From Nocardiopsis mwathae (GTDB taxonomy: Bacteria > Actinomycetota > Actinomycetes > Streptosporangiales > Streptosporangiaceae): a stretch of DNA of 64,000 bases. The stretch is taken from positions 1,178,001-1,242,000 of the forward strand of contig NZ_JACHDS010000001.1 of NCBI RefSeq assembly GCF_014201195.1, given 5' to 3'. Under the pieces are notes generated by a model that was given only the letters and a program-made list of their open reading frames with translations, ran no database searches and was not told the DNA's origin. Numbering within the stretch: position 1 is the first letter of the stretch; every line of letters begins with the position of its first letter. Shown here piece after piece: positions 16,436-62,413 of this stretch. The position numbers and the translations under genes were made by a program.

Positions 16436-16509
16436 TCCTCCGTCGATCTCGGAGACGTCGGGGGTGTCACGCGCGATGTTCGCCCGCGATCTCCGAGACC
16501 GACGGAGGA
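16436..16509. repeat. Dispersed inverted repeat, copy A
   Basis: Arms 16436-16455 and 16490-16509 (TCCTCCGTCGATCTCGGAGA and its complement with one mismatch) enclose a 34-base loop. It lies between convergent genes next to a separate terminator. See copies at 25083, 40359, 52818 and 62350. Confidence 0.75.
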
Positions 16510-16534
16510 TGGACAGGCCGCCGGTGAGAGGCCG

Positions 16535-16927
16535 CTAGTTCTCCGACTGCGCCGCCGCGGTGCACGGCGCGCATGTCCCGAACACCTCGACGGTGTGCGT
16601 GACATCGCTGAACCCGTGCTGTGCGCCGATGCTCTCGGCCCATCTCTCCACGGCCGGCCCCTCGACCTCCACGGCCTTGCCGCACTCGCGGCAGACCAGG
16701 TGATGGTGGTGGGTGTCGGTGATGCAGGCGCGGTAGACGGCCTCGCCATCGCTGGTGCGCAGCACGTCGACCTCGCCGGAATCACTCAGCGCCTGCAGCG
16801 CCCGGTAGACGGTCGTGAGCCCGATCTTCGAGCCCTCGGAGCGAAGGTCCGCATACAGGTCCTGGGCGCTGCGAAAACCGCTGCTCTCGCTCAGTGCCTG
16901 CCGGACGGCCTCGCGACGTGTACTCAT
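16535..16927 (-). CDS. zur: Zinc uptake regulator, Fur family
   Basis: DNA-binding repressor that senses Zn(II) and shuts off zinc acquisition genes. The 130-residue protein has a winged-helix N-terminus (REAVRQALSESSGFRSAQDLYADL, GLTTVYRALQAL). The dimer and metal region follows with THHHHLVCRECGKAVEV and a C-terminal CAPC pair that completes the structural zinc site. It overlaps the znuB stop as ATGA and is the last gene of znuC-znuB-zur. Identity as Zur rather than Fur or Nur rests on this operon and on a Zur-type box upstream of znuC, which would give autoregulation. Confidence 0.93.
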   Translation of the reverse strand: MSTRREAVRQALSESSGFRSAQDLYADLRSEGSKIGLTTVYRALQALSDSGEVDVLRTSDGEAVYRACITDTHHHHLVCRECGKAVEVEGPAVERWAESIGAQHGFSDVTHTVEVFGTCAPCTAAAQSEN

Positions 16928-17838
16928 GTGGATACGCTCCCCCGATCGGTCTGGGGCATCGTACCGACCGTAGCGGCCGCATCCTCCTCACGGGGGGTGT
17001 GGGGCACACCACGCCGACCGCGCGTCGCCCGACCGATGACCACTGCCACCGCGAACACCACGAGTGTGAGCAGGACGATCGCCCCGCCCGGTGCCACCTC
17101 CACATAGTAGGTCGTGGACAGACCGCCCACGGCGCAGATCACCCCGATGACCACGGCCAGTGCGACGGTCACCCGGAAACTGCGGGTGAGCTGCTGGGCA
17201 GCGGCGACGGGGACCACCATCAGAGCGCTCACCAGCAGGACACCCACCACCCGCATGGCCAGCACCACGGTCAGCGCGGCGGTGACCGCGATGACCAGGC
17301 TGAGCAGGCGGACCGGCAGTCCGTGCGCGCGGGCGACCTCCTCGTCCTGGCAGAGCACGAACAGCTCGCGGCCGAAGTAGCCGATGACCGCGATCACCAC
17401 GACGGCCAGTGCGGAGATCACCCAGACGTCCTCCTGGCTGACGCTGCTCACCGAGCCGAACAGGAAGGCGGTCAGCGTCGCGGTGTTGGCCCCCGGGGTC
17501 AGGCCGATGAGCAGCAGGCCGCCGGCGATGCCGCCGTAGAAGAGCAGGGCCAGGGCGACGTCGCCGCTCGCGCGGGCGCGCACGCGGATCAGCTCGATGA
17601 GGACGGCGGCGCCCCCGGCCACCAGCAGCGCGACGATGACCGGGGAGTTGCCGGTCAGGTATCCCAGGGCGACGCCGGTGAGCGCGACGTGCCCGATGCC
17701 GTCGCCGAGCAGGGCGAGGCGGCGCTGCACCAGGAAGGTGCCGATGACCGGCGCGATGAGGCCGACGAGTACGGCGACGATGAGCGCCCGCTGCATGAAG
17801 TCGTACTCCAGCAGGTCGAGCAGGGGCAGGTCAGGCAC
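16924..17838 (-). CDS. znuB: Metal (zinc) ABC transporter permease
   Basis: Integral membrane subunit of an ABC-3 family importer, predicted to carry Zn(II). The 304-residue protein has about nine transmembrane helices from residue 12 on. The family signature is around LLGDGIGHVALTGVALGYL, where the His-rich helix lines the pore, and around the coupling segment EEVARAHGLPVRLLSLV. The GTG start at 17838 overlaps the znuC stop by eight bases, and the stop overlaps zur. The long upstream frame belongs to antisense of znuC and is not part of the gene. No periplasmic zinc-binding subunit (ZnuA) is encoded in the window. Confidence 0.92.
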   Translation of the reverse strand: MPDLPLLDLLEYDFMQRALIVAVLVGLIAPVIGTFLVQRRLALLGDGIGHVALTGVALGYLTGNSPVIVALLVAGGAAVLIELIRVRARASGDVALALLFYGGIAGGLLLIGLTPGANTATLTAFLFGSVSSVSQEDVWVISALAVVVIAVIGYFGRELFVLCQDEEVARAHGLPVRLLSLVIAVTAALTVVLAMRVVGVLLVSALMVVPVAAAQQLTRSFRVTVALAVVIGVICAVGGLSTTYYVEVAPGGAIVLLTLVVFAVAVVIGRATRGRRGVPHTPREEDAAATVGTMPQTDRGSVST

Positions 17839-18673
17839 GGCGGGGTACCTCGATGTCGGGCACGGCGGCCGCCGGCGCGGGGGTTTCGCCGACGTGCGGG
17901 TGGACGTGGTCGTGGCCCGGGCGTGCACACGCGCCGGTGGGCCGGGGCGGAAGGCCGTCGTGTGCGATCCGTCCCTCGGACAGCACCAGGCTGCGCTCGA
18001 TGAGCGGTTCCAGCGGGCCGAGCTCGTGCAGCACCACCACGACGGTGGCGCCCCGCTCGGTGACCCGGCGGATGGTGGCGGCAAGTGCCTCCTGGTTGCC
18101 GGAGTCGACCCCGGCCATCGGCTCGTCCATGACGAAGGTGTCCGGCCTGCCCGCCAGAGCGCGCGCGATGAGAACGCGCTGCTGCTGGCCACCGGAGAGC
18201 TCGTGGACGGAGTCGTCGGCGCGGTCGGCGAGGCCGACGGCGTCCAGGGCGTCGGCGACGGCCGCGTGGTCCTCGGCCGAGGCCCGGCGGAACCGGCGAC
18301 GCCGCGCGACCTGCCCGGAGGCCACGACCTCGCGAACGGTCGCGGGGACGCCGCCGCCCGCGGTCAGGCGCTGCGGGACGTAGCCGATCCGGCTCCAGTC
18401 GCGGAAACGGCCCAGCGGGGCGCCGTGCACATCGATGCGGCCGCCGGTGAGCGGCGCGATGCCCAGCATCGCGCGCATGAGCGTGGACTTGCCCGAGCCG
18501 TTGGGGCCGAGGATGGCGAGTGTCTGCCCCACGGGCACGTCGAAGGTGACGCCCCGCAGGACCGGAGTCCGCTCGTAGGCGACGACGGCGTCGGCCACGG
18601 AGAACGCGGGCGGTGCTGGGCGCGGGTCCGGCTCGGCCTGGGCAGGCCGTTCACCGGTGCTTTCGACGGACAC
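17831..18673 (-). CDS. znuC: Metal (zinc) ABC transporter ATP-binding protein
   Basis: Cytoplasmic ATPase energising the ZnuB permease. The 280-residue protein has Walker A GPNGSGKST near residue 55, Q-loop YVPQRL, signature LSGGQQQR, Walker B FVMDEPMAGVD and the H-loop in VVVLHELGPL. A C-terminal tail with His-containing segments (GHDHVHPHVGE) could bind metal. It is first in the operon. The GTG start falls exactly at the expected transcription start of the TTGACA/CACACT promoter, so the mRNA may be leaderless. A Zur box overlaps the -35. Confidence 0.92.
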   Translation of the reverse strand: MSVESTGERPAQAEPDPRPAPPAFSVADAVVAYERTPVLRGVTFDVPVGQTLAILGPNGSGKSTLMRAMLGIAPLTGGRIDVHGAPLGRFRDWSRIGYVPQRLTAGGGVPATVREVVASGQVARRRRFRRASAEDHAAVADALDAVGLADRADDSVHELSGGQQQRVLIARALAGRPDTFVMDEPMAGVDSGNQEALAATIRRVTERGATVVVVLHELGPLEPLIERSLVLSEGRIAHDGLPPRPTGACARPGHDHVHPHVGETPAPAAAVPDIEVPRRA

Positions 18674-18679
18674 GTGTCA

Positions 18680-18708
18680 AGTGTGCCGAAAACGAAAATG
18701 GTTGTCAA
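18680..18708 (-). promoter_or_regulatory. znuC promoter with Zur box
   Basis: On the minus strand, -35 TTGACA (complement of 18703-18708) and CACACT (complement of 18680-18685) are 17 bases apart. A 15-bp 7-1-7 sequence TGACAACCATTTTCG (18693-18707) overlaps the -35. It resembles the actinobacterial Zur box TGAAAATNATTTTCA. Confidence 0.65.
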
Positions 18709-18741
18709 AACATACTGTTGCCAGGCATTCGCCGCAAGTGG

Positions 18742-19131
18742 TCAGAATAGTCCGCTTTGCAGTAGTCCGAGCGCCACCAGGGTGACGACCACGACCACCC
18801 GCATCACCCGCTCCCCCCGCCGCAGCCCCGGCCAGGCCAGGAATGCCAGCCAGGCGAAGAACCCCGCCAGCAGCGCCAGCAGTACCGTGCCCAGCGGCCC
18901 GGCCAGCAGCAGCCCGGCCACGAACACCGCGGCCATCGCCACCGGCAGGATCCACCGAGGCGCGTTGTGCAACCACACCAGCGGCACCGCACTGCGCCGC
19001 TCGATCTCATGGCGCAGCGGCCCCGCGTTCGGGGTGTAGAACGAATCCCCCGGCGGCAGCGGCCGGGACGCCGACCGCCCCCGCTGGTCGGGGCGGTTCT
19101 CGCGCTTCTTCTTGCGCTTGGGGGACAACAC
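18742..19131 (-). CDS. Small membrane protein of unknown function (DUF6703-like)
   Basis: I do not recognise a biochemical role. The 129-residue protein has a highly basic N-terminus (SPKRKKKRENRP), a conserved-looking RPLPPGDSFYTPNAGPLRHE segment, then two or three hydrophobic helices (WILPVAMAAVFVAGLLLAG, VLLALLAGFFAWLAFLAW, VMRVVVVVTLVALGLLQ). Short actinobacterial membrane proteins with a PLPPGD motif of this kind exist, and the family label is from memory. The start is either GTG 19131 or TTG 19128. The latter has the better spacing to AAGGAG. Confidence 0.7.
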   Translation of the reverse strand: MLSPKRKKKRENRPDQRGRSASRPLPPGDSFYTPNAGPLRHEIERRSAVPLVWLHNAPRWILPVAMAAVFVAGLLLAGPLGTVLLALLAGFFAWLAFLAWPGLRRGERVMRVVVVVTLVALGLLQSGLF

Positions 19132-19440
19132 GGCTCCTTGAACTCATCGAACGCCTACGTGGCACCAGGTGGAGCCTACTGAGATATCGATATCGCCAAC
19201 AGGTGGACCACAGCCGACCTCGGTGCGTAAACCCACCCGTCCCTGCGGTTATGTTGGATTATGCGGTGCGGTGTCGCCTGCGGCGCCCGCCGCGCGGCAG
19301 GGGTACGCCGGGTCCTTTACCCGGCACTTATCAGCGTCGGCCTAGCGTGACCGCTTCGCTGAAGCCGGACCCCAGCCCGGTCACGCACCAGTGTGCCCGC
19401 CCCCCATTTCCCACACGTGATAACCGGGAGTAGTCGTTCC
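19132..19440. other. Intergenic region before the wall-polymer transferase
   Basis: No gene supported. It contains the perfect 12-bp palindrome GATATCGATATC at 19183-19194 and a small hairpin GCCGGGT-N5-ACCCGGC at 19307-19325, both possible regulatory sites for the flanking genes. Confidence 0.5.
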
Positions 19441-22400
19441 GTGCCGAAGCTCAGCGTCATCGTGTCGTTCGACGTCACAGAGCCACACCTGCAGCACTGC
19501 CTGGACTCGCTCAGCGGGCGGGCGCGCGGTGACGGCGATGTCGAGGTCGTCCTCGCCCCCGTCGCCCGCCCCGGCGGCCGGACCACCGGGCGCCGCGATC
19601 CCGCGGACGACGCAACCTCCGACGAGACCGCCGGCGGCGCGGACGACGACGGCGACTCCGACGCCACCTCCGAGGACAGCGACACCGAGACCGAACGGGC
19701 CGGCGACGAGGGCGGAGAGGACAGCGAGTCCGCCGACAGCACCGGAGACGACGCCCTTCTTCCCGCCCGAGCCTTCGCCGCCGCACCGCCCCCCGGGTAC
19801 ACCGCCGCCCTGCTCGGCACCCCCGCCCCCTCCCATGCCGCCGCACGCAGGCAGGGCGCCCGCGCGTCCAGCGGCGACTACCTCGTGTTCATCGACGGTG
19901 CCGACGCGCTGACCGGCTACGCCCTGGACTACCTCGCCGACGCCCTCGACGCCTCCGGCTCCGACGTGGCCACCGGCAACGTCCACCGCTTCAACGAACT
20001 GGGCGTGCGCCCCTCGGCCGCGCACCGCAAGGTCTTCGCCAAGAACCGCACCGGCGTGGACGTCCGCGTCACCACCGCACTGCTGGGCGACCGCCAGTTC
20101 GGCAACAAGATGTGGCGCCGCTCCTTCTGGGAGCGCCTTCCCGAGACCGTGGCCGCGTTCGACGACGCCGACGGCGACCTCGCCGTACTGCGTGCGCTGT
20201 TCGCCGCCCAGACCGTCGACGTGCTCACCGCCCCCGTCCTGCTGCTGCGCGACCGCGAGACCGGGGAGAACCTCGCCCGGCCCGACACCATGGCCCGCCG
20301 CCTCGGTGCCATCGCCGAGCTGGCCGACTCGCTGAGCCCCGCCGACCGCGCCCTGTGGGACGACCGGGCGCTGCGCACGCACGTGCGGGCGGTCCTGCTC
20401 CGCATGGACGACGCCGAGCAGGAGACCCGCGAGCGCTTCTACGACCTCGCGGGCGCCTATCTCGCCAAGGCGGGGCCCAAGGTCGTCGACGCGCTGCCCG
20501 CCCTGCACCGCCTCAACTACCACCTCGTGCGCGCCCGGCAGGACGCGCGGGTGCTGGAGGCCATCACCTTCCAGAAGAGCGTCGAGCTGAAGAAGGCCCC
20601 GGTCGTCCGGCGCGGCCTGCACTACTACATCCGCTACCCGTTCTTCGAGGACGAGGCCGCCCAGATCCCCCGCGGCGTCTACCGCCTCGACTCCGAACTG
20701 CGCGTGCGCCAGAAGACCGAGGGCGTGCGGTGGCGGGACGGCAAGCTCGTCGTCAGCGGCCGTGTGGGCATCCTGCACCTGCGGGCCGGGCGCCGCTGGC
20801 AGCAGCAGCTGGTGGCGTTCGCGGTCAACTCCGACACCGGGCGGCGCGTGCCCGTCCCGGTCCGGGTGCGGCGCGCCGCCGAGTACCGGCTGCCCGACGT
20901 GCCCGAGGCGGCGCGGCACGACTTCGGCGGCTTCGAGGTCACCGTCGACCCGTCCCGGCTGCGGCTGTCCGGCCAGTGGCGGCCCACCGAGTGGAAGATC
21001 GAGCTGGTCGTCCTCAACCGCGGCCTGATCCGCCGCCGCATCGTCGGCAACCCGGTCTCCGGCCCGCCGGAGCGCCCCGGCTACGCGCGGGTCCACGGTG
21101 ACGTCTGGGTCCGACCCTGGTGGAACGCCGACGCGCAGCTGACCATCGCGGTCGACCCGGTGCGCGCCAGGATCGCCGAGTACCGCGTCGACCACTCCGG
21201 GGACCGCCCCGAGGTGGAGCTCACCGGAGAATTCGTCTCGGCGCCCGCGGCCGAGGCCCGCGAACTGCGGCTGACCCGCCTGCCCGGCACCGCGCGGCTC
21301 CGCTACCCCCTGCGCTCCACGCCGGCCGACGGGGCCCGCTTCACCGTCCGCGTCCCCGCCGCCGACCTGATCGACAACGCCGTGGACGAGGGCGGCGGCG
21401 TCATCCGCCAGGAGCAGTGGGGGGCCGAACTGGTCACCTCCGACGGCGCCGCCCTGCCGCTGGTCCTGCCGGACGAGGTCGAGGCGGCCGCGCACCCCGC
21501 CGGCGACGGGCACCACGAGGTCGCGGTGCAGCGCACCGCCACCGGCCACCTGCGGCTGCGTGCCGGATGGGCGCGCCCCGCGGTGCACGGGGCCGAGTGG
21601 GACGGCCGCGACCTGGTGCTCCGCGGCGAGTACGCCGCCGACGCCCGGATGGAGCTGGTGTTCAAGGCGCGCGGCCGCGACGAGGAGCACACCGTGGCCG
21701 TCGAGCGCGACGGCACCGCCTTCCGGGCGGTCTTCACCCCCTCCGCCATCCCGACCCTCTCGGGCGAGCTGCCGCTGCCCGCGGGCACCTACCAGCTGTG
21801 GGGCCGCGTCCACCTGGACGACGGCGCGTCCAGCGACGTCGGCGCCGAGTGCGGCGAGGACGTCACCCGCGCGATGCCGCTGGAGCTGGCCACCCCCGAG
21901 CGCACCTACACCTTCGCCCACTCCGGCTCCGACATACCGGTGCTCAAGGTCGGCAGCGACCTGCGGCCCGAAGAGCGCGGCACCTTCGCGCAGCGGCGGC
22001 TGCGCGAGGAGGTCTACCCCGCCCTGCGCCGGGAGAGCGCCGAGGAGCGGATCCTCTTCGACAGCTACACCGGCCGCCAGTTCTCCGACAGTCCGCACAG
22101 CATCTACGCATGCCTGCGGTCCCGGGGCGGGCGGTGGGCCGACTACCCGATGTCGTGGCTGGTCAAGGACGGCCAGGTGAACCTGCCCGGTGACGTGTCG
22201 GCGGTGCGCCACAACGGCCGCGACTTCTACGAGGCGCTCGCCCGCTCCAAGTACCTGGTGACCAACTCCCGCCAGCCGGCCTGGTTCGCCCGGCGCCCCG
22301 ACCAGGTGGTGGTGCAGACCTGGCACGGCTCGATGCTCAAGCGGATCGGCTTCGACATCGAGAACATCCGCGGCAAGTCCCGCGACTACCACGAGAAGCT

Positions 22401-23133
22401 GGCGTGGGAGACCGAGCAGTGGGACTACCTGGTCTCACCGAGCCCCTGGGCCACGCCCATCCTGCGCCGCGCCTTCCGCTTCGACGGGGAGATCCTGGAG
22501 ACCGGCTACCCGCGCAACGACATCTTCTTCTCCGCCGAGCGCGACGCCATCGCCGAGCGCACCCGGCGCCGGCTGGGCCTGCCCGCCGACAAGAAGGTGG
22601 TGCTCTACGCGCCGACCTGGCGCGACGACAAGTACTACACGCGCGGCAAGCACAAGCTCGACCTCCACCTGGACCTGCGGCGGATGTACGAGAAGCTCGG
22701 CGACGACCACGTGCTGCTGGTCCGGCGCCACCCCCGCGTCGTCGACAGCGTGCCCATCGTCGGTGAGGACTTCGTCTACGACGTGTCGCTGTACCCGGAG
22801 ATCATGGAGCTGTTCCTGATCACCGACGTGCTGGTCACCGACTACTCGTCGATGATGTTCGACTTCGCCAACACCGGTCGCCCGATGCTGTTCTTCACCT
22901 ACGACATCGAGGGCTACCGCGACAACCTCCGCGGCTTCTACTTCGATTTCGAGGAGACTGCGCCCGGGCCACTGCTGGTGGAGTCCGACGACGTCATCGC
23001 CTCGCTGCTGGACATCGACGAGGTCGCCGACGACTACAGCGGCAAGTACCGGGACTTCACCGAGAAGTTCTGCCCGCTGGACGACGGCAACGCCGCCGCC
23101 CGCGTGGTGGACCGGGTCTTCGGGGACGCCTGA
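19441..23133 (+). CDS. Bifunctional glycosyltransferase / CDP-glycerol glycerophosphotransferase (TagF-like)
   Basis: Very large (1230 residues) enzyme predicted to build a wall teichoic-type polymer. The N-terminus resembles a GT2 fold (KLSVIVSFDVTEPHLQHCLDSL). It is interrupted at about residues 43-106 by an Asp/Glu/Ser/Thr-rich low-complexity insert and continues with GDYLVFIDGADALT and FGNKMWRRSFW. A middle beta-rich region (about 400-850) follows. The C-terminal 380 residues form the TagF/TagB domain, with QTWHGSMLKRIG, YPRNDIFF, APTWRDDKYYTRGK, LLVRRHPRV, VTDYSSMMFDFANTGRPMLF and PGPLLVE. The GTG start follows GGGAG. Polymer type is unknown. The GT2 DxD site appears relaxed to DGAD. Confidence 0.85.
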   Translation: MPKLSVIVSFDVTEPHLQHCLDSLSGRARGDGDVEVVLAPVARPGGRTTGRRDPADDATSDETAGGADDDGDSDATSEDSDTETERAGDEGGEDSESADSTGDDALLPARAFAAAPPPGYTAALLGTPAPSHAAARRQGARASSGDYLVFIDGADALTGYALDYLADALDASGSDVATGNVHRFNELGVRPSAAHRKVFAKNRTGVDVRVTTALLGDRQFGNKMWRRSFWERLPETVAAFDDADGDLAVLRALFAAQTVDVLTAPVLLLRDRETGENLARPDTMARRLGAIAELADSLSPADRALWDDRALRTHVRAVLLRMDDAEQETRERFYDLAGAYLAKAGPKVVDALPALHRLNYHLVRARQDARVLEAITFQKSVELKKAPVVRRGLHYYIRYPFFEDEAAQIPRGVYRLDSELRVRQKTEGVRWRDGKLVVSGRVGILHLRAGRRWQQQLVAFAVNSDTGRRVPVPVRVRRAAEYRLPDVPEAARHDFGGFEVTVDPSRLRLSGQWRPTEWKIELVVLNRGLIRRRIVGNPVSGPPERPGYARVHGDVWVRPWWNADAQLTIAVDPVRARIAEYRVDHSGDRPEVELTGEFVSAPAAEARELRLTRLPGTARLRYPLRSTPADGARFTVRVPAADLIDNAVDEGGGVIRQEQWGAELVTSDGAALPLVLPDEVEAAAHPAGDGHHEVAVQRTATGHLRLRAGWARPAVHGAEWDGRDLVLRGEYAADARMELVFKARGRDEEHTVAVERDGTAFRAVFTPSAIPTLSGELPLPAGTYQLWGRVHLDDGASSDVGAECGEDVTRAMPLELATPERTYTFAHSGSDIPVLKVGSDLRPEERGTFAQRRLREEVYPALRRESAEERILFDSYTGRQFSDSPHSIYACLRSRGGRWADYPMSWLVKDGQVNLPGDVSAVRHNGRDFYEALARSKYLVTNSRQPAWFARRPDQVVVQTWHGSMLKRIGFDIENIRGKSRDYHEKLAWETEQWDYLVSPSPWATPILRRAFRFDGEILETGYPRNDIFFSAERDAIAERTRRRLGLPADKKVVLYAPTWRDDKYYTRGKHKLDLHLDLRRMYEKLGDDHVLLVRRHPRVVDSVPIVGEDFVYDVSLYPEIMELFLITDVLVTDYSSMMFDFANTGRPMLFFTYDIEGYRDNLRGFYFDFEETAPGPLLVESDDVIASLLDIDEVADDYSGKYRDFTEKFCPLDDGNAAARVVDRVFGDA

Positions 23134-23141
23134 CCCGCCCA

Positions 23142-23176
23142 CCCGGCCTCCCCCGCGTGCGGCGGGGGAGGCCGGG
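23142..23176 (+). terminator. Hairpin terminator after the TagF-like gene
   Basis: Perfect 15-bp stem (CCCGGCCTCCCCCGC) with a 5-base loop, eight bases after the stop. Confidence 0.75.
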
Positions 23177-23192
23177 GTGAGAGGATGGGGGC

Positions 23193-23492
23193 GTGATCGT
23201 CATCACCCGTTACACTGTGCCACTGGAGGAAGCCGACGACTTCGTGGCGCGCGCCTCTGCGGCGCTCTCGGCCCTCGGCGGCCGCCCGGGGTTCAAGGAC
23301 TCCTGGATCGGCCGCGCGGCGGACGAGCCGACGCTGTGGACCGTCGTCACCGAGTGGGAGGGGCCCGGCCACTACCGGCGGGCGCTGTCGGACTACGACG
23401 TGCGGATGGCGGCCGTGCCGCTGCTCTCACTCGCCCACGACGAACCCAGTGCCTATGAGGTGGTGTCCGGGCACACGCCGGGGCCGCGGTAA
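23193..23492 (+). CDS. Antibiotic biosynthesis monooxygenase (ABM) domain protein
   Basis: A 99-residue single-domain protein of the dimeric ferredoxin-like ABM superfamily. It has a first strand MIVITRYTVP, the helix EADDFVARASAALSALGGRPG, a strand with DSWIGRAADEPTLWTVVTEWE and a helix HYRRALSDYDVRMAAVPLLS. Members include small oxygenases and heme-degrading enzymes, but many have no known substrate, and no heme-ligand motif is evident here. The GTG start has AGAGGA eight bases upstream. It is monocistronic between two hairpins. Confidence 0.75.
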   Translation: MIVITRYTVPLEEADDFVARASAALSALGGRPGFKDSWIGRAADEPTLWTVVTEWEGPGHYRRALSDYDVRMAAVPLLSLAHDEPSAYEVVSGHTPGPR

Positions 23493-23500
23493 CGGCGATT

Positions 23501-23527
23501 CGATACGGCGCGCGATCGCGCGTATCG
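23501..23527 (+). terminator. Hairpin after the ABM gene
   Basis: CGATACG and CGTATCG arms flank a self-complementary GCGCGCGATCGCG core nine bases after the stop. Confidence 0.55.
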
Positions 23528-23677
23528 TCGTCGGTGCGATCCTCATCGCCCCCGCGGGGGCGGCTGTTTGGTGCGCGCCAGTGCCCGCAGGCCTTTAAGC
23601 TGGGCGCTTATCGTCAACATCGAGCATCGCGTCGAGCGATCCGCCGACCGCCAGCCGGATGGAGAGTCTGAGTACTT

Positions 23678-25066
23678 ATGGCCGCTAAGTCAGAGGCAAT
23701 GGACGCCCTCGTCAACCTCGCCAAGCGGCGGGGTCTGGTGTACCCCTCCAGCGAGATCTACGGGGGTCTGCGCGCCTCTTGGGACTACGGCCCCCTGGGC
23801 GTCGAGCTGAAGAGCAACATCAAGCGCCAGTGGTGGCGTTCGATGGTGCAGGAGCGCGACGACATCGTCGGGCTGGACTCCAGCGTCATCCTCGCCCGCG
23901 AGGTGTGGGAGGCGTCGGGCCACGTCAAGGCGTTCGTCGACCCGCTCACCGAGTGCATGTCCTGCCACAAGCGCTTCCGCGCCGACCACCTCCTTGAGGC
24001 CTACGAGGACAAGCACGGCAAGGAGCCGGAGAACGGCCTGGCCGGCCTGAACTGCGCCAACTGCGGCGCCAAGGGCTCGTTCACCGAACCGCGCACGTTC
24101 AGCGGCCTGCTGCGCACCTATCTGGGCCCGGTGCAGGACGAGTCCGGCCTGGCCTACCTGCGCCCGGAGACCGCCCAGGGCATCTTCATCAACTACCTCA
24201 ACGTGCAGCAGAGCGCGCGGCGCAAGATCCCCTTCGGTATCGGCCAGCTCGGCAAGTCGTTCCGCAACGAGATCACCCCGGGCAACTTCATCTTCCGCAC
24301 CCGCGAGTTCGAGCAGATGGAGATGGAGTTCTTCGTCAAGCCCGGCACCGACGAGGAATGGCACCAGTACTGGATCGACACCCGCCTGCAGTGGTACGTC
24401 GACCTGGGCGTCTCCAAGGACAACCTGCGGCTGTTCGAGCACCCCCAGGACAAGCTGGCGCACTACGCCAAGCGAACCGTGGACGTCGAGTACCGCTTCG
24501 GCTTCGTCGGCGGCGAGTGGGGCGAGCTGGAGGGCGTGGCCAACCGCACCGACTACGACCTGCGGACGCACGCCGAGGCCTCGGGCACCGACCTCTCCTT
24601 CTTCGACCAGGAGAACAACGAGCGCTACACGCCCTACGTCATCGAGCCGGCGGCCGGTGTCGACCGCGCGATGCTCGCGTTCATGCTCGACGCCTACCGC
24701 GAGGACGAGGCCCCCAACGCCAAGGGCAAGATGGAGAAGCGCGCGGTCATGCGTCTCGACCCGCGACTGTCCCCGGTCAAGGCCGCGGTGCTGCCGCTGT
24801 CCCGCAACGCCGCTCTCTCGCCCAAGGCCCGCGACCTCGCCGCCGCCCTGCGCAAGCGCTGGAACGTGGAGTTCGACGACGCCGGAGCCATCGGCCGCCG
24901 CTACCGTCGCCAGGACGAGATCGGTACCCCGTTCTGCGTCACCGTCGACTTCGACACCCTCGACGACAACGCGGTGACCGTCCGCGAACGCGACACCATG
25001 TCGCAGGAGCGCGTCTCCCTCGACCAGGTCGAGATGTACCTGCTGGAGCGCCTGCCCGGCTGCTGA
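23678..25066 (+). CDS. glyS: Glycyl-tRNA synthetase (alpha2 type)
   Basis: Charges tRNA-Gly with glycine (EC 6.1.1.14). The 462-residue class II synthetase has motif 1 in the [23 protein letters not shown] region. A zinc-type four-cysteine insertion follows (CMSCHKRF...CANCGAKG). Motif 2 is [29 protein letters not shown], motif 3 is [19 protein letters not shown], and a C-terminal anticodon-binding domain closes the protein. The ATG at 23678 gives a canonical N-terminus. I looked for a T-box in the 185-base leader and saw none. Confidence 0.97.
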
Positions 25067-25082
25067 CACCTGTCGCTCCGAT

Positions 25083-25138
25083 GATCTCGGGGGTACCGAC
25101 CTCATTCCGCCCCGGATCCGGTCGGTACCCCCGAGATC
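25083..25138. repeat. Dispersed inverted repeat, copy B (terminator between glyS and dgt)
   Basis: Perfect 19-bp arms GATCTCGGGGGTACCGACC (25083-25101 and complement 25120-25138). It shares the GATCTCGG/CCGAGATC core with the other copies and lies between convergent genes. Confidence 0.75.
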
Positions 25139-25166
25139 GACGCCGGAGGCCGTGCGGGAACGGCCC

Positions 25167-26414
25167 TCAGCGGGTCAGGCGCCGGTGCCAGGCGCGCGCC
25201 GAGGTGTCGGTGAGCGAGGCCACCTGGTCGATGACCACGCGCAGCGCCGCGGCGTCGTCGTCGGCGCGCTCGTAGTCGGCGCGGCAGGACTCGTCGAGCG
25301 TTTCCGGGGCGCCGAGGCGGACGGCGGCGACGAGTTCGGCGATCAGCTCGCGCTCACGGGCCTGGTACTCCTGCGCCTCCGTGCGTGCCATCACGTAGTG
25401 CGCGGCCACCGCCTTGAGCAGCGCGCACTCCAGCAGCGCGCGCCGCGGGACGATGAGGTCGGCCGTGTAGCGGGTGAGCGGGGCCGGGCCGTAGGCGGCG
25501 CGGGTAGCCTGCTCGGCCTCCCTGCAGAAGCGGCCGATGAGCTCGCTGGTCAGGTTCTTCAGCCCGGCGAGCGAGGCCACGTCCCCGGTGAAGTCGCGGG
25601 GCCAGAACGGCTCGGCCACCAGATCGCCGAAGACCTCCTCCAGCTCACCGGGGCCGGCGTCGCAGTAGTGCCGGGCCGCGATCGCGGCGACCTCGCGCCG
25701 CTCGCCCGGGGAGCGCAGGGCGTCCAGCCGCACCCACCCGGCGTACAGGCCGTCCTCCAGGTCATGCACGGAGTAGGCGACGTCGTCGGCCCAGTCCATC
25801 ACATCGGCCTCGAAACAGGTCCGGGTACTCGGCGCCGCCGCGCGGATCCACTCGAAGACCGACGTGTCGTCCGGGTAGCAGTTGAACTTGTGCGTGGCGC
25901 CGCCGCACCCCCGCTGCCACGGGTACTTCAGCGTGGCATCCAGGGTGGCGCGGGTCAGGTTGAGTCCGGCGCTGCGCCCGCCGTCACCGAGGACCTTGCC
26001 CTCCAGACGGGTCAGAAGGCGCAGGCTCTGGGCGTTGCCCTCGAAACCGCCGCAGGCCGCGGCCGCGGCGTCCAGTGCCTTCTCCCCGTTGTGCCCGAAG
26101 GGCGGGTGACCCAGATCGTGGGCGAGGCACGCGGCCTCCACGAGGTCGGGGTCGCAGCCCAGGGCGCGGCCGAGCTCGCGCCCGATCTGCGCGCACTCCA
26201 GCGAGTGGGTGAGGCGGGTGCGGGGAAAATCGCTGGCTCCGGGCTGCACCACCTGCGTCTTGGCGGCCAGCCGCCGCAGCGCGAAACTGTGCAGCACACG
26301 GGCCCGGTCCCGCTCGAACGGCCCGCGCGCCCGGTTCTTCGCGGATTCACCGGCCCACCGCTCCCGGTCATGGGAGCTGTATCCGGCCACGGGTGCTTCG
26401 GGAGTCGGCGACAT
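25167..26414 (-). CDS. dgt: Deoxyguanosinetriphosphate triphosphohydrolase-like HD protein
   Basis: Predicted dNTP triphosphohydrolase that releases tripolyphosphate from dGTP or other dNTPs. The 415-residue protein has the HD-domain residues in [18 protein letters not shown] and in the HD pair [17 protein letters not shown]. Further metal and substrate elements lie in [23 protein letters not shown]-terminal [22 protein letters not shown] is typical for type-2 dGTPases of actinobacteria. The ATG at 26414 starts the protein just after the 103-bp tandem repeat on the far side. In many actinobacteria dgt lies near dnaG, and here dnaG is about 9 kb away. Confidence 0.93.
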
Positions 26415-26676: not shown

Positions 26677-26677
26677 C

Positions 26678-39987: not shown

Positions 39988-40358
39988 GGCGGGGCCGTCG
40001 GGCGCCCGGGGCGGTCTGAGGTGCGGGCAGGAGCTCTCCCGCGGGGCCATTTCGGGAACAGATCATCGGGGGAGGGGTGGGAAAGCGTTGTCCGGTGGCT
40101 TTTCGGGTGCGGTGGATGGTTGGGGCGGGCGGATCGGCGGCTTCGGCCCGGCCGGAATCCGGGGTTTCCGCTTCGCGTGCAGCGGTTTCCGCGATCCGGG
40201 AGCCCCGGGCCCTCCTCGAAGATGATCATGGGCTCGCATCTCATCGCGCCCGTTTCGCCGGATTTTTTCCCATGCTCATCGCGGAAACCCATTCCGGCCA
40301 CCCTTCACCCGCACACACCCGGCCGTCGCCCAGGGATAGCGTTTTCCCTCCCTCTCGT

Positions 40359-40425
40359 CCGTTGGTCTCGGGGATATTGGGGTGAAAAATGGCCGGTGAG
40401 ACCCCGATATCTCCGAGATCAACGG
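40359..40425. repeat. Dispersed inverted repeat, copy C
   Basis: 25-base arms 40359-40383 and 40401-40425, with all three mismatches being G-U pairs in the plus-strand RNA. The loop GAAAAATGGCCGGTGAG resembles that of copy D. Confidence 0.75.
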
Positions 40426-40430
40426 AGGCA

Positions 40431-46143: not shown

Positions 46144-46216
46144 TCCCGCGTAGCTCAATTGGCAGAGCAGCCGGCTGTTAACCGGCAGGTTACTGGTTCG
46201 AGTCCAGTCGCGGGAG
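46144..46216 (+). tRNA. tRNA-Asn (GTT), copy 1, CCA encoded
   Basis: 73 bases with acceptor stem TCCCGCG/CGCGGGA, discriminator G, D-arm GCTCAATTGGCAGAGC, anticodon loop CTGTTAA (anticodon GTT) and T-arm CTGGTTCGAGTCCAG. CCA follows directly in the genome. A hairpin terminator follows. Confidence 0.97.
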
Positions 46217-46487: not shown

Positions 46488-46560
46488 TCCCGCGTAGCTC
46501 AATTGGCAGAGCAGCCGGCTGTTAACCGGCAGGTTACTGGTTCGAGTCCAGTCGCGGGAG
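46488..46560 (+). tRNA. tRNA-Asn (GTT), copy 2, no encoded CCA
   Basis: Same 73-base sequence as copy 1, but followed by CTTCC instead of CCA, so the 3' end must be added by nucleotidyltransferase. Confidence 0.97.
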
Positions 46561-52743: not shown

Positions 52744-52817
52744 CTCACTCCTCGCGTTGTGCGTCTGCTGCTTCTCTGTATTCAACGGACCGATTCCACG
52801 ATCCCGCGGTGCCCTGT

Positions 52818-52887
52818 CTCCGTTGATCTCGGAGATATCGGGGTAAAAATCGCCGCTGAGGCCCCACTATCTCCGAGATCAACGGAG
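52818..52887. repeat. Dispersed inverted repeat, copy D (inside the pca cluster)
   Basis: 26-base arms 52818-52843 and 52862-52887, differing at two adjacent positions. The loop TAAAAATCGCCGCTGAGG resembles that of copy C. It separates pcaG from pcaB, which are transcribed in the same direction. Confidence 0.75.
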
Positions 52888-52939
52888 GAGGGGGTGGGTA
52901 AGCGCTTTCCGGGCCGACCCGACCCCACCCATCCTCCAC

Positions 52940-54363: not shown

Positions 54364-54375
54364 CCTCTTCTCTCC

Positions 54376-55554: not shown

Positions 55555-55635
55555 CAGGTCTCCATCCTCCGCGAGGGGTGAGGTGTGGGCCGGTTCGGGG
55601 CGGGTGGGGCGGGAGTGATCCGCCTCACCCGTTCT

Positions 55636-57254: not shown

Positions 57255-57289
57255 GTGCCGCCCCACCTCCTGTTCGTATCGCGTATGGA

Positions 57290-57306
57290 TGTTCATAGTG
57301 CGAACA
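57290..57306. promoter_or_regulatory. PcaR-type operator before pcaI
   Basis: Palindrome TGTTC-N7-GAACA just downstream of the pcaI promoter. The identical arms occur at 58319-58335 upstream of pcaR, with a different 7-base spacer. Confidence 0.6.
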
Positions 57307-57317
57307 CCGTTGGGCAG

Positions 57318-57346
57318 ACGTTAGCGCCGCGTGCACGCCCGGTCAA
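57318..57346 (-). promoter_or_regulatory. pcaI operon promoter
   Basis: Minus strand TTGACC (complement of 57341-57346) and TAACGT (complement of 57318-57323) are separated by 17 bases. The predicted start near 57311 lies just upstream of the operator, and no terminator was seen between pcaR and pcaI. Confidence 0.65.
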
Positions 57347-57446
57347 CCGAGCGTGCGGGTGCCCGGGCGCGGAAACCGGGGTCGGCGCGGCGACGGCCGG
57401 ATGGGAGGTGAGGGTGAAGGGGGGAGGGCGCGGGGGCGTGCCGGGG

Positions 57447-58250: not shown

Positions 58251-58318
58251 GGTCAGACTGCTCCTGGTTCAGGGGTGATCGGCGTGCGGCAGCGTTTACG
58301 GCACAGGGTGTTCAGCGA

Positions 58319-58335
58319 TGTTCTCATAACGAACA
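58319..58335. promoter_or_regulatory. PcaR-type operator upstream of pcaR
   Basis: TGTTC-N7-GAACA, arms identical to the pcaI site. It is consistent with autoregulation. Confidence 0.55.
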
Positions 58336-58628
58336 GGGTGTCCGCGCGGGTTCGCTGTGCGTGGCACGGTGCGCCACCCGCAGGTCGGACAACGGCCGGC
58401 GGGAGCGGCGAGGCGGCCGTCACAGTGTTGGCCACGTCTCATCGGATCGCGGTCGATTTCGCCTCCCGGGGGCGGTGGCCACCCCCGCGGATGTGCGACG
58501 ATCGGGGAGGTCGCGCCGGTCAGAGCCGTCGTGGCGGGCGGGTCATCCTGCCATCCCATACGCCGGCCCCCGGGGCGCGGCGGATTCGCGGCAGTGCCGG
58601 GTGCGCGTTCTCAACCCCAAGTGTTGGG

Positions 58629-58657
58629 TTGACGACAGAATGGCAGTGCCGTACGTT
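58629..58657 (+). promoter_or_regulatory. Promoter of the NitT/TauT-type ABC importer
   Basis: TTGACG at 58629-58634 and TACGTT at 58652-58657 are separated by 17 bases, giving a leader of about 170 bases before the binding-protein gene. Confidence 0.55.
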
Positions 58658-58834
58658 CGCGACAAGCACGCTAGTTCGCAAGGCGCACATGACCTCCGTC
58701 TCCGGGTCCTCGGACCTCCGGATGCTGCGAACGCTTCGGTCCAGGCCCACCGGGAGCCGGACCGAGGGGCGAAGTCCCGCCGATCGTCTCGATCCCGGCC
58801 CATCCCCACGTTCCCTTATCTCAGGAGACCCCCG

Positions 58835-59785
58835 ATGCGTCGAAAGATCCTCGCGTTGACCGGAGTCGTGGCGCTGCTCACGACCGCGGCCTGCGGAGGC
58901 GGTGATGCCGCGGAGAAGGACGGGCTCACCACACTGAAGATCGGCTCCATGCCGGTCGTCGACACCGCCGCCCTCCACCTCGGGGTGGACCAGGGATACT
59001 TCGAGGACCTCGGGATCGAGCTGGACATCACCAACGTCCAGGGCGGCGCCGAGGCGATCCCGGGCGTCGTCAGCGGCGACTTCGACATCGCCTTCAGCAA
59101 CGTGACGTCCCTGATCGTCGCCAGGGAGAAGGACCTCCCGCTGAAGATCATCAACAACGCCGTGGCCAGCACCGGCAAAGAGGGCAAGGACTTCGGCGGC
59201 GTCGTCGTCCCCGAAGGCAGCTCCATCACCGGCGCCAAGGACCTCGCCGGCAAGAAGGTCGCGGTGAACACGCTGCAGAACATCGGCGACACCACCGTGC
59301 GCAACTCGGTCCGCAAGGCCGGCGGCGACCCCGAGGACATCGAGTTCGTCGAGATGGCGTTCCCCGACATGCCGGCCGCCGTCGAGAAGAAGCAGGTCGA
59401 CGCCGCCTGGGTGGTCGAGCCGTTCCTCACCATGGCGCTCAACGACGGGGCCACCGAGGTCGCCTCCAACTTCGTCGACACCCACGAGTCGCTCTCCGTC
59501 GCCGTCTACTTCACCTCGGAGAAGTTCCTCGCCGAGAACCCCGAGCTGGCCAAGTCCTTCACCACCGCGATGTCGGAGTCGCAGGCCTACGCCCAGAGCC
59601 ACCCCGAAGAGGTGCGCCGCATCCTCACCACCTACACCAAGATGGACGAGAACCTCATCGAGCAGATCCGCCTGCCCAACTACCCCTCCCAGAAGGACAC
59701 CGAGTCCGCCCAGGTGCTCGGTGAGCTGATGAAGGAGGACGGCCTGATCGACTCCGAGCCGAACCTGGACGAGCTCTACCAGTGA
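58835..59785 (+). CDS. ABC transporter substrate-binding protein (NMT1/TauA-like)
   Basis: Lipoprotein-type binding protein of the NitT/TauT family. The 316-residue protein starts MRRKILALTGVVALLTTAACGGG, where the lipidated cysteine follows TAA. The family fold shows IGSMPVVDTAALHLGVDQGY, GVVSGDFDIAFSNVTSL and VDAAWVVEPFLTMAL. AGGAG lies seven bases before the ATG. The lead position in an SBP-permease-permease-ATPase operon, divergent from pcaR, suggests it binds an aromatic acid such as 4-hydroxybenzoate or protocatechuate. The family also binds sulfonates, nitrate and thiamine precursors, so the ligand is inference. Confidence 0.9.
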   Translation: MRRKILALTGVVALLTTAACGGGDAAEKDGLTTLKIGSMPVVDTAALHLGVDQGYFEDLGIELDITNVQGGAEAIPGVVSGDFDIAFSNVTSLIVAREKDLPLKIINNAVASTGKEGKDFGGVVVPEGSSITGAKDLAGKKVAVNTLQNIGDTTVRNSVRKAGGDPEDIEFVEMAFPDMPAAVEKKQVDAAWVVEPFLTMALNDGATEVASNFVDTHESLSVAVYFTSEKFLAENPELAKSFTTAMSESQAYAQSHPEEVRRILTTYTKMDENLIEQIRLPNYPSQKDTESAQVLGELMKEDGLIDSEPNLDELYQ

Positions 59786-60594
59786 CCCGAACCGCGAACA
59801 CCTCACCCGACGCCGCCGTCGGCGCGGGCGCGAACCGGGCCCTGCTGGGCGCGGCCGGTGTCGCCGGACTGCTGGTGCTGTGGGAGGCGCTGCCCCGCAT
59901 CGGGGCGGCCGACCCGCGGTACCTGCCGCCGGCCTCGGAGGTCGCGATCACGCTGGGCGGCCGGCTCGGCGGCGCGACCTTCTGGGCCGCGGTCGGCGAC
60001 ACCGTCGCGGCCTGGGCGCTGGGGCTGGCGATCGCCTTCGCGGCCGCCGTCGTCCTGGGCTTCCTCATCGGGTCCGCACCGCGCGTCCGCGCCTTCACCA
60101 CCTCCACGGTGGAGTTCCTCCGCCCGATCCCGTCCGTGGCGCTGATCCCGCTGGCGATCCTGCTGTACGGCACGGACATCCGCTCGACCCTGCTGCTCGT
60201 GGTCTACGCCGCGTTCTGGCAGATCTACATCCAGGTGCTCTACGGTGTCGCCGACGTCGACCCGGTCGCCGACCAGACCGCCCGCTGCTACGGGCTGGGC
60301 CGCATGGCGCGGATCCGCTATGTCGTGTGGCCCTCCGCGCTGCCCTACCTGATGACCGGGCTGCGGCTCGGCGCCGCCGTCGCGCTGGTCCTCACGGTGA
60401 CCGCGCAGCTGGTCATCGGCAGCCCCGGCCTGGGACAGGAGATCGCCGTGGCGCGCTCCAGCGGGGCCTTGGACGAGGTCTACGCGCTGATCGTCGCCAC
60501 CGGTGCGCTCGGCGTCCTCGTCAACACGGGCATCCGCGCCTTGGAGCGGCGCGCCCTGCGCTGGCACTCGTCCGTCCGGGGGGAGGCCCTGTGA
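59782..60594 (+). CDS. ABC transporter permease (SsuC/TauC type), first
   Basis: Integral membrane subunit of the same importer. The 270-residue protein has six helices and the binding-protein-dependent permease EAA-type loop DPVADQTARCYGLGRMARIR followed by VVWPSALPYLMTGLR. The GTG start overlaps the binding-protein stop (GTGA). The next gene overlaps in the same way, so all are co-translated. The N-terminal 20 residues are hydrophilic. Confidence 0.92.
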   Translation: MTRTANTSPDAAVGAGANRALLGAAGVAGLLVLWEALPRIGAADPRYLPPASEVAITLGGRLGGATFWAAVGDTVAAWALGLAIAFAAAVVLGFLIGSAPRVRAFTTSTVEFLRPIPSVALIPLAILLYGTDIRSTLLLVVYAAFWQIYIQVLYGVADVDPVADQTARCYGLGRMARIRYVVWPSALPYLMTGLRLGAAVALVLTVTAQLVIGSPGLGQEIAVARSSGALDEVYALIVATGALGVLVNTGIRALERRALRWHSSVRGEAL

Positions 60595-61397
60595 CCGCCA
60601 TGAGAACAACGGCCGCACGCCCCCGCGGCGTGCTGACGCGCCTGCTGGAGCTGTTCCTGCTGCCGGTGCTGCTCATCGCCCTGTGGTGGGCGGGCAGCGC
60701 CTCCTCCGGCAACTACTACATGCCTACGCCCGACGTCATCGCCGAGAAGTTCCGCGAGGTCTGGATCTCCGAGCGCTTCTTCGTCGACGTGCTGCCCAGT
60801 GTCGGCCTGCTGCTCAGCGGGTTCGCGCTGGCGGCGGTGGTGGGTGTGGCCCTGGGGGTGGCCCTGGGTCTGTCGCCCCGCGCCCGCGCGGTCGGCGAGC
60901 CGGTGCTGGAGTTCTTCCGCGCCGTCCCGCCGCCCGTGCTGGTCCCGCTGCTGATGCTGCTGGTCGGCGTGAACACGCCGATGAAGCTCGCGGTCATCGT
61001 CTCCGGGTGCGTGTGGCCGATCCTGCTCAACACCATCGAGGGCGTGCGCGCGGTCGACCCGGTGCTGGCGGACACCTGCCGCTGCTACGGCATCCGCGGT
61101 CGGCGCTGGCTGACCACGCTGGTGCTGCGCTCGGCCAGCCCGCAGATCATGGCGGGACTCCGCCAGGGGCTGTCCATCGCGATCATCCTCATGGTCATCA
61201 GCGAGATGTTCGCCAGCTCCAGTGGCCTGGGCTTCAGCATCGTGCAGTTCCAGCGCAGCTTCGCCATCCCCGAGATGTGGAGCGGCATCGTCCTGCTGGG
61301 CCTGATCGGGTTCCTCCTGTCGGTGCTGTTCGGCGTGGCGGAGCGCTACGTCCTGGGCTGGTACCGCGGCGTGCGCGCCGCGAGCCGCGGGGAGTGA
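60591..61397 (+). CDS. ABC transporter permease (SsuC/TauC type), second
   Basis: Second permease, so the channel is probably a heterodimer. The 268-residue protein has the helices typical of the family and the loop DPVLADTCRCYGIRGRRWLTT followed by LVLRSASPQIMAGLRQGLS. The GTG start at 60591 has GGAGG four bases upstream and overlaps the preceding stop (GTGA). The alternative ATG at 60600 lies too far from that site. A 67-base gap follows before the ATPase gene. Confidence 0.92.
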   Translation: MTAMRTTAARPRGVLTRLLELFLLPVLLIALWWAGSASSGNYYMPTPDVIAEKFREVWISERFFVDVLPSVGLLLSGFALAAVVGVALGVALGLSPRARAVGEPVLEFFRAVPPPVLVPLLMLLVGVNTPMKLAVIVSGCVWPILLNTIEGVRAVDPVLADTCRCYGIRGRRWLTTLVLRSASPQIMAGLRQGLSIAIILMVISEMFASSSGLGFSIVQFQRSFAIPEMWSGIVLLGLIGFLLSVLFGVAERYVLGWYRGVRAASRGE

Positions 61398-61464
61398 CGG
61401 CCATGCGCACCCCACCGAATCCCCGCACCCCCAACCCCAACGGCTTTGTCAAGGAGAGGTCGCA

Positions 61465-62280
61465 ATGCTTGAGGTGACCCGGCTGCAGAAGATCTACCGG
61501 GGGGAGGGCCGCGAGGTCGAGGCCGTCCGCGACCTCACCTTCCGGCTCGGCGAGGGCGAGCTGGCCTGCCTCGTCGGCCCCTCGGGCTGCGGCAAGACCA
61601 CCCTGCTCAAGTGCATCTCGGGGCTGATGGCCCCGACCTCGGGCAGCGTCGAGCTGGCCGGGAACCGGGTCACCGGCCCGCCTCGGGACATGGCCGTGGT
61701 CTTCCAGGAGTACGGCCGCAGCCTGTTCCCGTGGATGAGCGTGCGCGACAACGTCGAGCTGCCGCTCAAGGAGAAGAAGCTGTCGGCGTCGCGGCGGCGC
61801 AAGCTGGTCCGCGAGTCGCTGGAGGCGGTGGGACTGGCCGACTTCGCGGCGTCCTACCCCTGGCAGCTGTCCGGGGGCATGCAGCAGCGCGTCGCCATCG
61901 CCCGCGCCATCGCCTATGAGCCGCGGGTGCTGCTCATGGACGAGCCGTTCGCGGCCGTGGACGCCCAGACCCGGGCCGACCTGGAGGACCTGATCCGCGA
62001 GCTGTGGCGGAAGTTCTCCATCACCGTCCTGTTCGTCACCCACGACATCGACGAGGCGGTCTACCTCGGCCAGCGCGTGCTGGTCCTGTCGTCCTCGCCG
62101 ACGGTCGTCCAGGACGACGTGGCGATCGACCTGCCCGACCGGCGCGACCAGCTCACGACACGCGCCCTGCCGCGTTTCGCCGAGCTGCGGGCGCGGGTCT
62201 ACAACCAGATCCAGAACGCCAAGCGCGGGTCGGCCGACGGCCACCGCTCCGCGCCGAGCGCGGCCGCGGCCGACGCCTGA
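61465..62280 (+). CDS. ABC transporter ATP-binding protein (SsuB/TauB type)
   Basis: ATPase of the importer. The 271-residue protein has Walker A VGPSGCGKTT, Q-loop VVFQEYGRSLFPWMSV, signature LSGGMQQRVAIARAIA, Walker B VLLMDEPFAAVD and H-loop VTHDIDEAVYL. The ATG has AAGGAGA nine bases upstream. The C-terminus ends in a short Ala/Ser tail with no regulatory domain. Convergent repeat copy E lies 70 bases beyond. Confidence 0.94.
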   Translation: MLEVTRLQKIYRGEGREVEAVRDLTFRLGEGELACLVGPSGCGKTTLLKCISGLMAPTSGSVELAGNRVTGPPRDMAVVFQEYGRSLFPWMSVRDNVELPLKEKKLSASRRRKLVRESLEAVGLADFAASYPWQLSGGMQQRVAIARAIAYEPRVLLMDEPFAAVDAQTRADLEDLIRELWRKFSITVLFVTHDIDEAVYLGQRVLVLSSSPTVVQDDVAIDLPDRRDQLTTRALPRFAELRARVYNQIQNAKRGSADGHRSAPSAAAADA

Positions 62281-62349
62281 GGCGTCGGCCGCGGCCGTCC
62301 CACCGGTCGGCGCCCCTTTTCACCTGGCACGGGCGCCGACCGGTCCCCT

Positions 62350-62413
62350 CGTTGGTCTCGGCGAAGCGCACCGAATCCCGGCGACTTTTCGGTGCGCTTC
62401 GCCGAGACCAACG
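62350..62413. repeat. Dispersed inverted repeat, copy E
   Basis: Perfect 26-bp arms (62350-62375 and 62388-62413) with a 12-base loop, starting CGTTGGTCTCGGCGAAGCGC, between convergent genes. Confidence 0.8.

Follow-up and report, generated by a model that had tools for sequence, protein, structure and literature searches.

Proteobacteria supply the best-known small hairpin elements, among which REPINs are tied to RAYTs. We analysed a 64,000-nt window of the Nocardiopsis mwathae genome (C1:1178001-1242000 of the host assembly G000; 5.94 Mb, two contigs), in which a preliminary description had reported five dispersed inverted repeats with related arms (hereafter copies A to E). Several described systems come close to these repeats. 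REPINs have conserved ends, spacer length and pairing both matter in them, and their changes are compensatory (PMC3116915). CGTC REPs have no known dedicated transposase and lie beside gene 3' ends; they are recorded from five phyla, and their description does not contain the word actinobacteria but notes tagless REP-like sequences in M. tuberculosis (PMC3733652). Palindromic elements of Rickettsia, SPRITE of Streptococcus pneumoniae and MITEs are further points of comparison. We conclude that the window copies probably belong to a RAYT-independent, REPIN-like family of non-autonomous short interspersed palindromes that settles mainly at gene 3' ends and possibly forms two-way 3'-end hairpins. 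Sequence comparison establishes the unit, its length, covariation, placement and turnover, as well as in-frame copies and a composite form.

The unit is a palindrome of 64-65 nt, CG-TTGATC...GATCAA-CG, with a 24-bp stem and a loop of ~16 nt. Counted from CG to CG, it comprises CGTTGATCTCGG, ~40 nt and CCGAGATCAACG, in total 64 nt (65 in copy C), and this common unit is shorter than most of the spans given in the preliminary description. Its ends, CGTTGATCTCGG in this genus, are near-invariant: of the 129 host copies outside called genes, no fewer than 126 retain the CG on either side, compared with only 96-97 for the next outward base. By end make-up, CG stands on both sides in 163 of 174 copies of host and G021. 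Length is fixed, with 58 nt between the TGATC ends in 128 of the 136 scanner-accepted host copies; scanner hits below a score of 13 in the host and 18 in G021 were excluded from the scanner-based counts. The flanks outside the unit are pyrimidine-rich on the left and purine-rich (G/A-rich) on the right, and complementarity beyond the unit exceeds that of shuffled partners (mean run 2.5 vs 1.3 in the host and 2.4 vs 1.2 in the congener G021). By simple motif rules, the inner arms of host copies fall into the types GGGG (95 copies), GACC (25), GCACC (8), GGTTCG (5) and other (2). The loop centre reads GCG or CGC in 108/129 host and 33/45 G021 copies, counts that have no chance control.

The pattern GATCTCGGN{24,54}CCGAGATC occurs at 130 places in the host, whereas the reversed control occurs at none; chance probably accounts for at least one of these exact-core places, which spans 49 nt. 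With a covariance model built from 20 copies, there are at least 150 strand-matches in the host, and G021 has 156 exact-core places. The preliminary description had proposed a dispersed, mainly intergenic family of REP/BIME or MITE kind and had named a lack of further genomic copies as the outcome that would speak against it; with more than 100 additional copies in the host, the proposal stands. Among the host loci there are also an apparent deletion remnant at G000:C1:973107-973139, where the palindrome lacks its interior, and two lone arms at G000:C1:954671 and 1084238, seemingly inside small hairpins, which likewise appear to be deletion remnants.

Judged by model matches, the family is present in many Actinomycetes. 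In a draw of 61 genomes of the taxonomic family, 19 are matched. The host, G021 and G008, the last from another genus, have at least 79 strand-matches each and the others 1-12; when the loci were read, several of the one- and two-match genomes seemed to be chance. In a class-level draw scanned with a second model from 20 diverse members (E 1e-5, strict filters, at most 17 scored matches per genome), matches occur in 36/296 genomes and 22/114 genera, host and G021 included. Most of the 30 best-match class loci that were read have CG..GATC[T/A][T/C]G arms and are 61-64 or 72-77 nt long; 10 lie between convergent and 11 between tandem genes, one is divergent, five are cut by an edge and three fall in called genes (the gene caller was trained on the host, and two of these three are cut loci where the match was missed in the read-out). 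A phylum-level draw gives 2/296 genomes, i.e. the host and one 29-nt match; this draw held match-free members of the class, so it indicates patchiness only and is no proof of absence elsewhere. Phage and plasmid collections, queried with one 82-nt sequence each, gave no match. Of two patterns run against IMG/VR, one returned four stretches and the other none; the four do not resemble the element, have no paired interior, and three of them lie inside called genes. Searches of open-access literature listed no description of the family (most subscription papers lie outside those searches), and among the matches listed for open-access texts containing the arm 12-mer there is no title on bacterial repeats. 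A contig of the metagenome-assembled genome Actinomycetota bacterium BP_184 carries a GATGATCATGGGG palindrome of near-equal length, at 112-184 of the locus read.

Pairing is maintained across genera. When 20 members representing nine genera are aligned, with a single gap, 95.2% of cells are paired, 17 of the 24 stem pairs have changes on both sides, and the covariation score is 0.609 vs 0.188 for shuffled and at most 0.17 for slid alignments. On this comparison, the stem sequence changes while pairing stays. Because a palindrome forms a hairpin on either strand, covariation alone cannot separate selection on RNA from selection on DNA; loop orientation relative to transcription is the same in 17 cases and opposite in 14.

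This anatomy is that of REPINs in several respects: two inverted conserved ends, fixed spacing, a paired middle with compensatory changes, extragenic dispersal and a hairpin unit (PMC3116915). The same features, together with the Y1 matches found in the host (one) and in G021 (two), would favour REPINs moved by a RAYT, an IS200-like Y1 transposase. Other observations make that highly improbable. Among 18 element-carrying genomes, Y1_Tnp matches occur in G000, G021, G296 and G008 (the last a fragment of 30 positions), and 14 have none; the only host Y1 gene adjoins an OrfB_IS605 gene; and no element lies in the 7-8 kb read at the host Y1 gene (7 kb) and the two G021 Y1 matches. A linked RAYT, which the preliminary description had listed as a point to check, is therefore not supported. 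Further differences concern the sequence itself, since the ends read CGTT in most copies with no GTAG tag, a single arm folds no better than shuffled arms (-3.5 vs -3.3 kcal/mol) and forms no hairpin of its own, and the unit has 64 nt, unlike the 71 bp between the first residues of the two 16-mers in GI REPINs (PMC3116915). Of the REP likeness suggested earlier, the hairpin doublet and the fixed spacing hold by analogy; membership among REPs fails because single arms do not fold, and the RAYT link fails as well. REPIN-like anatomy combined with failed RAYT linkage leads us to place the family, by analogy, as REPIN-like and RAYT-independent.

The five window copies were confirmed by reading the sequence at each place. 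An inverted-repeat finder recovers A (16436-16509), B (25083-25138), D (52818-52887) and E (62350-62413). Copy C is absent among the finder pairs listed (25 of 44) and was confirmed by direct reading; it folds at -49.4 kcal/mol and has a covariance-model match at 40354-40430. All five + strand folds beat 200 of 200 dinucleotide shuffles, with z between -4.8 and -9.2. Three arms, namely the two of D and the right one of C, match the 13-nt core exactly, the remaining seven being 1-2 bases off, and a degenerate 12-mer (at most 1 mismatch) has 50 matches in the window vs 17.3 expected, a number reached in 0/100 shuffles. The units and their neighbours, with gene context from our own non-standard gene caller and domains by Pfam, are as follows.

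16441..16504: copy A, 64-nt palindrome (full inverted repeat 16436-16509); convergent, with a GDSL-lipase domain in the + strand gene and a FUR domain in the - strand gene
25079..25142: copy B, 64-nt palindrome of the ...CGACC inner-arm type; convergent, with tRNA-synthetase class II in the + strand gene and an HD domain in the - strand gene
40360..40424: copy C, 65-nt palindrome of the ...TTGGGG type, right end of a composite repeat; convergent, with Glyco_hydro_18 in the + strand gene and PNPOx_N in the - strand gene
52821..52884: copy D, 64-nt palindrome of the ...TCGGGG type; flanked by - strand genes, the upstream one with a Dioxygenase domain and the downstream one with Lyase_1/ADSL_C
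62350..62413: copy E, 64-nt palindrome of the ...GCGCACC type; convergent, between an ABC_tran gene (+) and a BPD_transp_1 gene (-)

The gene calls bear out the convergent setting of A, B, C and E, and the domains flanking D fit pca genes, in agreement with its earlier assignment to a pca operon. One gene of the pca region has relatives on a named Nocardiopsis contig (70% in the best segment) and in other Actinomycetes. Rfam at gathering thresholds matches only two tRNAs in the window, + strand genes of equal score at 46144-46216 and 46488-46560, their starts 344 bp apart.

Placement relative to genes is strongly biased. In 460 contiguous kb of the host around the window, with genes again from our own caller, 21 model matches comprise 15 convergent, six tandem, no divergent and no in-gene copies, against a background of 64/367 convergent junctions (P 8e-8 by junction). 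As the window had been chosen for its copies, the count was redone without its five, leaving 11/16 convergent (P 8e-6). In 480 kb of G021, 15 matches comprise eight convergent, six tandem, one at an edge and none divergent, and in 320 kb of G008, 11 matches include five convergent and two tandem (weak places, i.e. four host and two G008 ones whose E exceeded 1e-4, were excluded). A site-chosen set of 136 host copies includes 64 convergent, 54 tandem, eight edge-cut and seven in called genes, one of the seven being a chance match. The nearest upstream stop codon is within 50 nt for 81/125 host and 39/45 G021 copies, and the TGA of the element is itself the stop codon of the gene at 11/189 facing gene ends in the host and 7/74 in G021.

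Convergent and 3' placement and the supply of stop codons recall CGTC REPs and the Rickettsia palindromic elements, where TAG from GTAG REPs is supplied (PMC3733652, PMC10969869). CGTC REPs differ in having 8-9 bp stems, 4-5 nt loops and CCA-like tails (PMC3733652), compared with the 24-bp stem and ~16-nt loop found here. SPRITE is similar as a dispersed terminator-like repeat near gene 3' ends with no target-site duplication established; it differs in being AT-rich, with a U-rich tract, an 18-bp stem and 30 copies in one genome, and in being almost absent from streptococci except S. mitis, whereas the present element has no U-tract and a much wider range (PMC3049150).

The 3' placement, the convergent bias and the stable hairpins on both strands would also be expected if the copies were ordinary bidirectional terminators that owe their shared arms to selection for a single preferred hairpin sequence rather than to dispersal. 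Ordinary hairpins are indeed somewhat rarer at element-bearing convergent junctions of the host (2/15 vs 16/39 without an element, P 0.06); G021 has no such deficit (3/7 vs 19/50). Like an intrinsic terminator, the element is a hairpin just 3' of genes, but the U-tract after the stem is missing and the right flank is G/A-rich. A terminator scan of 16000-26000 reported six terminator-like sites, neither copy A nor copy B among them. The fixed length and the discrete, shared inner-arm types and loops also argue against selection for a favourite hairpin. The other intergenic hairpins listed in the 460 kb share nothing with the elements, having unrelated arms and mostly short loops, so that the core is not the generic terminator sequence considered in the preliminary description. 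GC-rich ordinary hairpins at 16388-16433 and 62261-62344 lie between the + strand gene and copies A and E, which they adjoin directly; G021 junctions without an element have hairpins of this kind too.

Copies inside genes bear directly on this question. Six host copies lie in frame in long polyketide-synthase (PKS) open reading frames, within the acyltransferase (AT) domain (Pfam Acyl_transf_1), in the region G000:C1:410772-475942, which has a homologous set in G021. The insertion point is between SNVTG and SAEYWVRHVR. The residues between these motifs number 45 in element-bearing host modules and 45, 45, 50 and 50 in four filled AT modules of G021; seven element-free modules (host and G021) have 24 in six cases and 21 in one (the module search gave 24 matches in the host and 18 in G021, of which part were read). 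The net gain over the usual 24 residues is 21 codons, or 63 nt. In G021, a flippase-like membrane protein gene (Polysacc_synt_3, C1:1359424-1361028, - strand) encodes, in the same frame, a peptide very like that of the PKS copies; its orthologues have a decayed insertion in the host (C1:4099636-4101204) and a shorter loop in G008. The PKS and flippase genes are unrelated, and the element is read in one common frame in both. In-frame gene insertions are likewise known for CGTC REPs and Rickettsia palindromic elements, there with 20-30 residues (PMC3733652, PMC10969869). A terminator has no reason to sit inside genes, and insertion of a mobile unit is what such copies speak for. Two other candidate in-gene copies, at C1:1027394 and G021:1068848, were discarded as chance, and a G021 gene call running through the element at 1672136 was not counted because the coding score falls there.

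Comparison of the two congeners reveals turnover. In the compared region, host and G021 have 291 reciprocal best hits with a median protein identity of 87%. Of 261 conserved gene junctions, 18 carry an element: four in both genomes, eight in the host only and six in G021 only. Sharing is above chance at tandem junctions (P 0.006) and not at convergent ones (P 0.20). The junctions of copies B and D are shared, with differing inner-arm types in host and G021, and a third shared pair resembles one ancestral copy that has decayed in the host. Nearest neighbours among the copies resemble each other more closely when both come from one genome than when they come from two (P ~1e-7). Turnover and within-genome likeness fit lineage-specific spread and loss, and we infer active movement from this distribution. 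Together with the in-frame copies, congener turnover leaves ordinary terminators a very unlikely account. Protein-binding, chromosome-organising or DNA-uptake sites kept at many loci by selection are also very unlikely. The very constant ends across genera speak for such sites; against them stand the rapid turnover, the in-frame gene copies and the near-confinement of the arm 12-mer CGTTGATCTCGG to palindromes (17 of its 21 occurrences in the 460 kb are inside elements, and two of the other four are elements missed by the scan).

Some copies belong to larger composite repeats, of which the window contains one, ending in copy C.

40060..40425: composite repeat (~366 bp)
40060-40068: half-arm AGATCATCG, remnant of the left palindrome of the composite
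40221..40280: second, internal palindrome of the composite, GATGATCATGGG...CCCATGCTCATC, placed by eye from an alignment
40333..40348: subterminal GGGAAAGCGCTTTCCC-like motif beside copy C, 2 mismatches
52896..52911: the corresponding subterminal motif in the flank of copy D, also with 2 mismatches

The window composite is 82% identical, over 402 columns, to one at C1:~3,154,900. In the flank of copy D the motif is present and the remainder of the composite is not matched. In the host, twelve pairs of palindromes lie 176-571 bp apart, eleven with homologous DNA between them and the twelfth with a gene-like stretch. After removal of five short or duplicate host rows and one G021 row, 31 interior matches reduce to 25 host composite regions, the one in the window included, 240-508 bp long and mostly near 270 or 444, of which 11 have palindromes at both ends and 14 at one. 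The composite interior begins with the GGGAAAGCGCTTTCCC-like motif, which we take to resemble LacI-family operators, and the long form also holds an internal TGATCATGG-type palindrome. Palindromes resembling this internal one, of a second type whose arms read TGATCACGG / TGATCATGG and whose length is similar to that of the element, stand alone in G021 at C1:1092006, 1366526 and 4612021.

Such composites with inverted palindromes, and the small, non-autonomous, multicopy nature of the unit with its inverted ends, are reminiscent of MITEs (PMC10969869). As for target-site duplications, which the preliminary description had listed as a point to check, direct repeats at the flanks are no longer than in shuffles, with nothing found beyond a possible duplication of the invariant CG. 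No parent transposon was found, the search having covered Y1 transposases only. The existence of composites raises the possibility that a larger MITE-like transposon, i.e. the composite itself, has left the 64-bp palindromes behind as its solo ends. Copies C and D carry the subterminal motif, and with up to 5 mismatches allowed it occurs on one side of 46/129 host elements, 36 of them at one offset (10-12 nt outside the unit), vs 5/258 shuffled flanks. Yet it is missing from 83/129 host and 40/45 G021 elements, the five G021 occurrences being at scattered positions. Unit length is equal in other genera, the PKS and flippase copies hold the unit alone, and the G021 DNA examined comes close to having many units and no composite. 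We therefore consider solo ends unlikely.

Five long composites have interiors that are 80-84% alike. The inner 40 nt of their right-end palindromes are 33-47% alike in seven of ten pairs and 78-90% in three, and their left-end palindromes are 57-97% alike. Like interiors with unlike end palindromes suggest that palindromes have been exchanged at fixed sites, at least at one end. Coupled with the differing types at the congener junctions of B and D, this raises a more speculative and still doubtful possibility: an Actinomycete pool of exchangeable hairpin cassettes, in which one type would replace another in place via the 12-nt arms that they share. No RAYT would be needed, template switching at the hairpin being one conceivable route, and the 3'-end hairpins of many genes would thereby form one concertedly renewed population.

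Under the REPIN-like, RAYT-independent reading, the unit would spread whole and non-autonomously, plausibly as a single-stranded hairpin as proposed for REPINs, and its mover would be an enzyme other than a Y1/RAYT transposase. Insertions would survive chiefly in the stretch immediately 3' of a stop codon, most of all where two genes converge. At gene ends, each transcript could fold into a long hairpin. Placement and hairpin strength suggest that the element likely works as a terminator or 3'-end block in both directions, or is tolerated in that capacity, a role that the ordinary-hairpin counts support weakly. Two copies can also enclose other DNA and make up a composite repeat, copy C being an example.

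Several observations weigh against this reading. No moving enzyme was identified in a search confined to Y1 transposases. At the compared junctions there is no clean empty site with a duplication or exact edges, the congeners being too diverged. Some copies lie between divergent genes (3/136 in the host and 4/11 in G008). Pooled over both genomes, ordinary hairpins at convergent junctions with a gap of at least 30 nt occur in 5/22 with an element vs 35/89 without (P 0.21), and replacement of ordinary hairpins by elements was rejected because this difference is not significant. The PKS insertion of 63 nt is one short of the 64-nt unit. In-frame insertion into unrelated genes, the mark of the Rickettsia type, is seen in PKS and flippase copies, i.e. 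in two gene families only; the PKS copies probably spread by module duplication or conversion, so the six host copies and those of G021 may represent a single event. There is also no strand-specific wobble bias: in 54 copies between tandem genes, sense-strand mismatches comprise 29 G-U and 24 A-C (P 0.58). The arm mismatches of copy C, read in the preliminary description as G-U pairs under RNA-hairpin selection, are G-U on the + strand only and A-C on the - strand (folds of -49.4 vs -34.4 kcal/mol). Every single transition in a palindrome produces such a pair of mismatches, G-U when one strand is read and A-C when its complement is, and no RNA strand bias is seen, so that argument fails.

A REPIN-like counterpart across many Actinomycetes, in genomes without a Y1 match, raises the question of what moves it. 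If the elements terminate transcription, mobile DNA would supply 3' ends for many genes in a group known for its antibiotic producers. The in-frame copies in AT domains suggest that the elements also reshape biosynthetic enzymes, and PKS modules that share an element may mark module duplication or conversion.

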